DNA from: Oscillospiraceae bacterium
GTDB lineage: Bacteria > Bacillota > Clostridia > Oscillospirales > Acutalibacteraceae
NCBI GenBank assembly: GCA_009785335.1
Contig: WQWM01000001.1
Location: 157,202 to 221,201 of the forward strand
DNA length: 64,000 nucleotides
Reading direction: 5' to 3'
Under the pieces are notes generated by a model, which saw nothing but the letters and a program-made list of their open reading frames with translations, made no database searches and was not told where the DNA came from. The translations under genes and the position numbers were made by a program. This document shows, one piece after another, positions 17,273 through 64,000 of the stretch (its first letter is position 1; each line of letters begins with the position of its first letter).

Positions 17273-17364
17273 TGGCGGAGAGCAAGGGATTCGAACCCTC
17301 GGTACGTTTAAGGCGTACACACGATTTCCAATCGTGCTCCTTCGACCAACTCGGACAACTCTCC
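17273..17364 (-). tRNA. tRNA-Ser: tRNA-Ser (anticodon GGA)
   Basis: The minus strand folds as a class II tRNA: acceptor GGAGAGT/GCTCTCC, anticodon stem CACGA/TCGTG with loop TTGGAAA (anticodon GGA), a long variable arm (GTACGCC...GTAC), T arm with GGTTCGAATCC, discriminator G and an encoded CCA. It reads UCC and UCU codons. Confidence 0.97.
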
Positions 17365-17376
17365 ATATAATACACT

Positions 17377-17405
17377 ATTATAGCACAGCCCTGCGATGAT
17401 GTCAA
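17377..17405 (-). promoter_or_regulatory. Consensus promoter of tRNA-Ser
   Basis: Minus strand TTGACA (17400-17405), 17 bases, TATAAT (17377-17382), a perfect match as expected for a stable RNA gene. Confidence 0.9.
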
Positions 17406-17424
17406 CTAAAATTTCGCGCAGACG

Positions 17425-17458
17425 GCAAAACCCCAGCAGCAGGTGAGCTGCCGGGGTA
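17425..17458 (-). terminator. Intrinsic terminator of the 17475 gene
   Basis: Minus strand ACCCCGGCAGC-TCACCT-GCTGCTGGGGTTTTG. Confidence 0.75.
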
Positions 17459-17474: not shown

Positions 17475-18158
17475 TTACTTAAAGAAAAAGCTTAAGCCGG
17501 AGAACAACGCTGCCGTGCCTGCGCTGCTGGCTGCTTTGCCGGCCAGTGCCGCCGTTTGCGCTTGCAACAGCAGGGCTTCTTCGCTGTTTGCTTCTAGTTG
17601 CCACCTGTGCAGCTGTTCTTCGTAGAGATTCACGGCTTCTTTCCATGATTCCGCCCTGAAGTTGACTAAGTAAGAGTAAATCTCATTCAGCGCAAGCGGA
17701 TAGCGATAGTTTGGCGGAATCAGGTTTACGTACTCCATTTTTGCGATGAGTGCATCTTCAAACGGTTTGCGTTTATAGTCCATATAACGCTGCAAAACGC
17801 CCTTTTCCTCAAACAGTTCTCGCAATTTTAACGACGTTAAAGACAATGGTATCTTGCCGTTTAGTATACGATTGATGTCTTTTTTCTGCTTTTCACTTAT
17901 GTCGAAGCAGGCGTTTAACTCATAGAAATTGCGAAATTCGCATACATCGGATATTTCTTCACGTTTTATCAACTGGTATAGATATTGGTTCGCGGGAATT
18001 GCTTTATATTGCATCTGAAGCGCATCAACAAAATCCGATTCCGATGCTTCCAAATACGGCGTAATCACCGAATTCGCGGTTTGGATGACCTCTAACAGCG
18101 TTGGTGTATCTAGGGTTAAAACCGACGCTGCTTGCGGAATGGAAAGTGCTGTTGACAT
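17475..18158 (-). CDS. Orphan protein under a poly-G promoter
   Basis: The 227-residue protein (MSTALSIPQAASVLTLDTPT...) is largely helical and charged, with no signal peptide. The C-terminus QTAALAGKAASSAGTAALFSGLSFFFK is small-residue rich and hydrophobic, possibly a membrane-inserting or oligomerising helix. No known family recognised. AGAGGAGA precedes the ATG at 18158. The promoter has a 12-bp homopolymeric G tract as spacer, so expression may switch on and off by slippage. The gene is more A+T-rich than its neighbours. It ends at a clear terminator, so it is a single-gene transcript. Confidence 0.7.
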   Translation of the reverse strand: MSTALSIPQAASVLTLDTPTLLEVIQTANSVITPYLEASESDFVDALQMQYKAIPANQYLYQLIKREEISDVCEFRNFYELNACFDISEKQKKDINRILNGKIPLSLTSLKLRELFEEKGVLQRYMDYKRKPFEDALIAKMEYVNLIPPNYRYPLALNEIYSYLVNFRAESWKEAVNLYEEQLHRWQLEANSEEALLLQAQTAALAGKAASSAGTAALFSGLSFFFK

Positions 18159-18192
18159 AACAAAAAATCTCCTCTGTGAAATAGTAACTAAA

Positions 18193-18223
18193 ATTATACC
18201 CCCCCCCCCCTTGTTTTTGTCAA
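18193..18223 (-). promoter_or_regulatory. Promoter with homopolymeric G12 spacer (candidate phase-variable)
   Basis: On the minus strand TTGACA (18218-18223) is followed by AAAACAA, twelve G and TATAAT (18193-18198), giving a 19-base spacer. Losing two G would give the optimal 17. The downstream leader TATAATTTTAGTTA...AGGAGAT is shared with the promoter at 63865. Confidence 0.75.
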
Positions 18224-18278
18224 GCCTTTTCGACAAAGTTTTTCATGTTTGTGAAAAACGACGAAAAACGCGCAGCAC

Positions 18279-63066: not shown

Positions 63067-63831
63067 TTATCCTAACCAATTTATTATCCCAGCTATAACT
63101 CCAACTATAGAGGCAAAACCTACTAGCAATAGCGCTTGACCGACAACATCCACAATCTCGGGGACGTTTCTATCCCCAATTATAGTAGCCAGAATCAAAA
63201 ACACCACAACAGAAAAAATCAACGTAACACTGCTTATAATCAATAACCACGGTGTTGTTGTCCCGCCGCTGCTTGCACCACGCGCAAACCGCGCTTCGGC
63301 AGCAGCCATGTCATTGCACAGGCGGCCTTGGGCAAAGGCAAAGGTTGTGCCCGCAATACCCGCCGAGATATCGGTGGGCAGGTTCATTGTTGCTTCAATG
63401 CGCAGCAAATTCACGCCGCGCACATCAACGTGAATGTACCTTGGCAGTGCAGTTGCATTGATAGTAACTCGCTGCAACAATCGACCATCGCCAAAAAACG
63501 CAATGCTTCCTCCACGAATCCCTGTGCCATCTATGCGTCCAATGTATCCGCTTAATGTCGCATGCTGTCCTCTGAGATTATGCAAAGTAAAAGAACTTCC
63601 CGTGCTTAAGGGACTTGCTTGAACTGGAAAACGCAATGCATTTGCATAGGATACGCCGCCCATAACCGCGCTTCCAACAACGGCATTCCGTCCGATACCC
63701 GTGCTACCAAGTTGATGCGGCGGCACGGCTTGCGTAAGTATCACCTGCCGTGCGCTGGCTTGCGTTGCCAGAGGAATGAGCATCAGCACCGCCAATGCCA
63801 CAGCGAGAATTGATTTGATTGTCTTCTTCAT
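63067..63831 (-). CDS. Secreted NPCBM-like domain protein with C-terminal helices
   Basis: The 254-residue protein has a signal peptide (MKKTIKSILAVALAVLMLIPLATQASA), then an NPCBM-like beta-sandwich (YANALRFPVQASPLSTGSSFTLHNLRGQHATLSGYIGRIDGTG...IAFFGDGRLLQRV...VDVRGVNLLRIEA), a carbohydrate-binding type, and two C-terminal helices (LLIISSVTLIFSVVVFLILAT; ALLLVGFASIVGVIAGIINWL). It is thus held on the outer membrane face. AAAGGAG nine bases before the ATG at 63831 sets the start; the track's longer frame reads through the promoter. A 17-bp poly-G tract abuts its -10 box. Confidence 0.82.
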   Translation of the reverse strand: MKKTIKSILAVALAVLMLIPLATQASARQVILTQAVPPHQLGSTGIGRNAVVGSAVMGGVSYANALRFPVQASPLSTGSSFTLHNLRGQHATLSGYIGRIDGTGIRGGSIAFFGDGRLLQRVTINATALPRYIHVDVRGVNLLRIEATMNLPTDISAGIAGTTFAFAQGRLCNDMAAAEARFARGASSGGTTTPWLLIISSVTLIFSVVVFLILATIIGDRNVPEIVDVVGQALLLVGFASIVGVIAGIINWLG

Positions 63832-63864
63832 GCGAAACATCTCCTTTGTTAAATAATAACTAAA

Positions 63865-63887
63865 ATTATACCCCCCCCCCCCCCCCC
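63865..63887 (-). promoter_or_regulatory. -10 box abutted by a G17 tract (candidate phase-variable promoter)
   Basis: Minus strand: seventeen G (63871-63887) directly before TATAAT (63865-63870), then TTTTAGTTA and AAAGGAGAT. Leader and homopolymer placement repeat those of the promoter at 18193. No TTGACA is visible upstream of the tract; the sequence there is A-rich. From 63888 to 64000 no gene is supported. Confidence 0.6.
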
Positions 63888-64000
63888 TTTTTTTAATTTT
63901 TTTCTCTTTTTTTCTTCGGGGGCAATATAGAGAAAAAAAAGATGGGGCGGGGGGAGGGTTCATGTTTACGGAGAGAGGACTTTCTTTCCTCTTCATGCAA

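Follow-up and report, generated by a model that had tools for sequence, protein, structure and literature searches.

Analysis of a window of 64,000 nucleotides from contig WQWM01000001.1 of an Oscillospiraceae bacterium indicated that the promoter at positions 18193 to 18223, on the minus strand, is very probably a phase-variable promoter of the spacing type, in which slipped-strand mispairing in a poly-G tract would change the distance between the -35 and -10 hexamers. An earlier sequence-only reading of the same window had proposed a phase-variable promoter, and this proposal gained support, because the geometry of the promoter, its recurrence in the genome, the 17-bp spacers of homologues without a repeat, the exchange of poly-G for (TA)n and the differing repeat numbers of near-identical cassettes all point in the same direction. 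The locus appears to be one copy of a promoter cassette that is dispersed in the genome, mostly ahead of genes predicted to encode secreted, lipoprotein or membrane-anchored proteins.

Promoter geometry and recurrence in the genome

Read on the minus strand, the promoter consists of the -35 hexamer TTGACA (18223-18218), the heptamer AAAACAA (18217-18211), a tract of 12 G residues (G12; 18210-18199) and the -10 hexamer TATAAT (18198-18193), so that the arrangement TTGACA-AAAACAA-G12-TATAAT and its 19-base spacer, composed of AAAACAA and G12, had been described exactly in the sequence-only reading. A simple repeat is therefore located between two recognisable hexamers, and the 19-bp spacing is near 17 bp and within slippage reach of it, as a tract of 10 G would give 17 bp. 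The -10 hexamer is followed by TTTTAGTTACTATTTCACAGAGGAGATTTTTTGTTATG, with an ATG at 18158 and a Shine-Dalgarno motif, AGAGGAG, at 18169-18175 (all on the minus strand). The 14-mer TATAATTTTAGTTA, which spans the -10 hexamer (18185-18198), has a second copy at 63857-63870, and a conserved upstream element common to the class-A cassettes described below, TTCGTCGTTTTTCACAAACATGAAAAAC, was located at 18238-18265 (minus strand) by cassette alignment and genome search. Runs of at least nine G (G9+) gave 13 overlapping matches in the window, all of them from two tracts, while 0.20 were expected from the shuffled window.

A genome census based on pattern searches, with the reversed pattern as control, revealed that the G12 promoter is not the single case that it had been taken for. 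The sequence GGGGGGGGGTATAAT (G9-TATAAT) matched four times in the whole genome and its reversed control did not match; the pattern TTGACN{1,9}G8N{0,8}TAWAAT matched six times in this genome, with no match of the reversed control in any of the 60 genomes searched; and the looser TTGAC-N-G6 pattern gave 30 raw matches versus three for the control. The genome contains 27 G9+ tracts, and a -35 box stands immediately ahead of the G run at about 14 distinct loci. In addition, several contigs start with the downstream half of a poly-G promoter, and the pairing of garbled contig ends joins halves of one locus, as in the ends of contigs C27 and C1 and the starts of C37 and C31. Because about 14 loci were found, half-promoters occur at contig starts and some contig ends belong to one locus, a fair total for the genome is about 15 promoters with poly-G between the -35 and -10 hexamers.

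Ten aligned cassettes, including that at 18193-18223, form class A and share TTCGTC-N6-CACAAAC-TTGAAAAA upstream of CTTGACA; exact copies of CACAAACWTGAAAAA were found at six sites in the genome, all six upstream of poly-G promoters. A search with the class-A upstream element detected three further copies in the genome in which the spacer is a (TA)n repeat, with lengths of 17 bp (C14:5259, L282), 15 bp (C17:40566, L285) and, in a collapsed form, 5 bp (C4:5331, L277), the first two of which drive secreted proteins. The congener G006 also has three (TA)n promoters, on a near-identical cassette of its own and with spacers of 13, 19 and 13, and the reversed control of the (TA)n promoter search gave no match in 40 genomes. 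Since the same cassette carries either poly-G or (TA)n, the common feature is a slippable spacer and not G-richness. The element TTCGTC-N6-CACAAAC, which could be a regulator site, also precedes a tRNA promoter with an ordinary 17-bp spacer (C3:55718).

Class B drives the protein family MNMKKLLATLLAV..., which has a threonine-rich stalk and a C-terminal transmembrane segment. At three loci, the G tract is absent from the class-B homologue and the spacer is exactly 17 bp, while the spacers of the poly-G members range from 15 to 20. The class-B surface proteins (L044, L050, L107 and L067 of G010) combine a conserved signal peptide and C-terminal anchor with a variable ectodomain, and form a mosaic across species. 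One pair, G010 C23 and G000 C1:123784, has matching promoters and signal peptides (G9 versus G12) and was rejected as strict orthologues or alleles because the ectodomains differ, so that it is retained as a family comparison only.

Tract length, spacing and alternative explanations

Near-identical cassettes of one and the same genome were found with unequal repeats, namely the (TA)n spacers of G006 and, for poly-G, G10, G12 and G13 in a Candidatus Ancillula genome, G10 versus G11 in Lapin-018 bin38 and G11 versus G12 in genome G180, and the contig starts of C31 and C37, which are two assemblies of one locus, carry G12 and G14. In a set of 75 distinct poly-G promoters taken from genomes in GTDB, the lengths of the left and right flanks of the tract compensated each other (r = -0.65), and the spacer had a standard deviation of 2.31 versus 4.14 after shuffling (75 distinct cores; 0/20000 shuffles). 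The shuffle test was used instead of the peak in spacer length because the search pattern itself contributes to that peak, its permitted lengths forming a triangular range centred at 18. Because the left and right flanks compensate, the total spacing, near 19, is what is held.

The proposed mechanism starts from a sigma-A-type promoter whose spacer is mostly a G homopolymer, in which replication slippage would make the tract longer or shorter by one base or a few. Each shift would bring the spacing closer to about 17 bp or take it further from this value, and would thereby set how strongly individual cells transcribe the downstream gene, with G12 (19 bp) as the weak or off-leaning state and G10 (17 bp) as the strong one. 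We infer slippage in the population, the assignment of ON and OFF states, and a benefit in the form of surface heterogeneity.

Several observations weigh against phase variation. The promoter at C17:2831 has a G8 tract and a spacer of 11 bp, which is far from any workable spacing as assembled, and sequencing error may account for the G12/G14 difference between C31 and C37 and for tract lengths at contig ends. The mutS gene is intact and there is no mutator background in the genome, therefore any slippage need not be mutator-driven. Poly-G promoters were detected in just three of 14 genomes, so that most congeners appear to lack them, a count subject to the caveat that short-read assemblies may lose them. 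Finally, the 227-amino-acid protein encoded downstream of the G12 promoter lacks an evident signal peptide, unlike most of the promoter set.

Among the alternatives, a spacer of fixed length that is G-rich for reasons of DNA structure or binding, such as a G-quadruplex or a regulator, would be compatible with the G-rich, interrupted spacers of some relatives (G004 C50, GGGGTGGGTGGGG; G002 C152), but it is unlikely given that tract lengths are unequal between otherwise near-identical cassettes, that (TA)n takes the place of poly-G at three sites in the genome and that the congener has three (TA)n promoters of its own; this swap weakens G-quadruplex and G-specific-binding explanations alike. Decay or neutrality, whereby the tract would have expanded by chance and the promoter would simply be weak, agrees with the suboptimal 19-bp spacer and with the appearance of C17:2831 (11 bp) and C4:5331 (5 bp), both of which look non-functional as assembled. 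However, many loci retain consensus hexamers together with the upstream element, and compensating flanks hold the total spacing, which leaves this explanation a low probability.

Slightly less probable still is translational phase variation, in which the tract would be coding within a longer frame that starts at TTG 18236 and slippage would cause a frameshift. The frame of the 227-amino-acid gene is indeed open through the tract up to this TTG, but a good Shine-Dalgarno motif and an ATG are present downstream of the tract. Furthermore, of the 55 poly-G promoters with a gene, 14 have the gene frame open through the tract, and the two remaining frames are open in 14 and 21, so that these 55 show no preference for the gene frame; the corresponding figure for the loci of this genome is 6 of 12. 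The least credible explanation is a sequencing or assembly artefact, with poly-G produced by two-colour chemistry or read failure: many tracts, including that at the window end, do lie less than about 200 bases from the end of their contig, with degraded sequence after them, but the G12 tract (G000:C1:175394) lies in the interior of a 221-kb contig, flanked left and right by clean sequence, and is therefore not a contig-end artefact, the tracts are placed non-randomly, a few bases after TTGAC and before TATAAT, and independent assemblies of other species have the same arrangement.

Distribution and relation to known switches

The arrangement TTGAC...G10...TATAAT was found in at least 119 stretches of GTDB species genomes, and the matches listed include uncultured Bacilli and Clostridia, Candidatus Ancillula, Chloroflexi, Helicobacter labacensis, Streptobacillus, Lactococcus hircilactis and others. 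A search of 391 genomes of the class returned five positive genomes, a single one of which held as many as eight sites, and no control match in any. The poly-G promoter trait is sporadic and clustered in particular genomes. In genome G412, of the same class, lipoprotein genes (loci L258, L262, L266, L267 and L269) are preceded by a separate poly-G cassette, TTGACAAAC-G9-TGATATAAT or a form that differs from it by one base. At least six poly-G spacer promoters, with tracts from G10 to G13, were observed in Candidatus Ancillula JAIRWY01 (L140, L150, L161, L174, L201 and L215), and in uncultured Bacilli such promoters precede type IV pilin-like genes, MKKKGFTLIELLAVIV (L184, L197 and L210). In the literature searched, poly-G promoter spacers were not found to have been reported for Clostridia-type commensals, which is weak evidence of absence.

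Most of what is known of phase variation by spacer repeats comes from a small number of host-adapted pathogens. In Neisseria, fetA (poly-C) and porA (poly-G) have a homopolymer exactly between the -35 and -10 hexamers, and its length sets transcription (PMC5320596). The tracts described here have the same placement, in a bacterium unlike the Gram-negative pathogen to which fetA and porA belong. We know of no shared dispersed cassette for these two genes. In Mycoplasma hyorhinis, each member of the vlp surface-lipoprotein family switches through a poly-A tract in its own promoter region (PMC10502178), which resembles the present case in that many promoters each have their own repeat; vlp, however, combines poly-A with one gene family, whereas here one cassette with poly-G or (TA)n precedes unrelated, dispersed genes. 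In Haemophilus influenzae, a (TA)9-11 repeat was proposed to alter the -35/-10 spacing of hifA/hifB, and in strain F3031 there are also hifA loci in which poly-A replaces TA (PMC2651432), a precedent for the swapped repeat type; that switch concerns pilin loci only, in contrast to the genome-wide promoter set found here. The length of a promoter C tract affects transcription of fim2, fim3 and fimX in Bordetella (PMC1891110), compared to which the poly-G promoters have consensus -35 boxes. In Bifidobacterium breve, a Gram-positive gut commensal, replication slippage occurs in G-tracts of pilus genes and affects surface structures (PMC9187656), but these tracts are intragenic and not in a promoter spacer.

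On its architecture, the promoter at 18193-18223 is a member of the spacer-type phase-variable class of fetA, porA, hifAB and vlp. The best reading is that the poly-G promoters would work like Neisseria fetA/porA, M. hyorhinis vlp and H. influenzae hifAB. The mechanism is already known; what is new is the shared cassette, the mixed repeat types, the number of loci and the host. With little more than even confidence, we put forward a broader proposal, according to which a dispersed cassette with an interchangeable slippable spacer (poly-G or (TA)n) precedes many unrelated, mostly surface-protein genes, would provide about 17 independent switches and thus combinatorial surface states, may have arisen repeatedly across uncultured bacteria, and would be under-recorded since short-read assemblies break at the tracts. 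If true, about 15 promoters, many on one cassette and with two repeat types, would make for a rich example of programmed heterogeneity at the surface in an uncultured lineage. That such promoters recur in many metagenome-assembled genomes suggests that the strategy is general and has been overlooked, with a predicted bias whereby contigs end at exactly those loci that vary.

Downstream genes and the second promoter of the window

Inspection by eye indicated that about 10 of the 14 downstream genes in this genome encode a signal peptide, a lipoprotein box or an anchor. Surface or secreted proteins are common targets of spacer-type phase-variable promoters, although such a target does not strictly define the class. 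Among ten downstream proteins scanned against Pfam, one contained RCC1 repeats and the rest gave weak matches below the cut-off.

The gene driven by the G12 promoter (17475-18158, minus strand) had been called an orphan with its own terminator, and both parts of this description stood in part. The Pfam scan of the 227-amino-acid protein gave no match; nevertheless, its C-terminal 80-90 residues, approximately, are common to relatives in the genus, found in this genome and in three congeners. Some of these relatives have transmembrane segments, as judged by eye, and one relative, in G004, likewise has a spacer that is G-rich but interrupted. A single-sequence AlphaFold model of the protein was uninformative (mean predicted local distance difference test score 40.8). 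Downstream of the gene, a hairpin of 11 bp with a short U run (17417-17457, minus strand, ends approximate; fold z = -4.2) is a probable weak terminator, although just four U's follow it and the terminator scan of the window did not flag it. The promoter of tRNA-Ser (17273-17364), at 17377-17405, is a perfect TTGACA-17-TATAAT and offers a fixed-spacing contrast to the G12 promoter.

The only other G9+ tract of the window, a G17 at 63871-63887 (minus strand) identified from the sequence and from the overlap with C27, belongs to a second poly-G promoter; it lies at the contig end and its length is unreliable. The -10 region of this promoter (63857-63870, minus strand) is TATAATTTTAGTTA, identical to the 14-mer at 18185-18198, and its gene (63067-63831, minus strand) encodes a secreted protein with a C-terminal transmembrane segment and a weak, below cut-off similarity to NPCBM. 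Beyond G17, about 113 bases (63888-64000) resemble degraded read sequence and not genomic upstream DNA. In the garbled overlap, the end of C27, which carries TTGACAAAAT-G16, pairs with the C1 end that holds this tract, and the true upstream side of the second promoter is probably this right end of C27.
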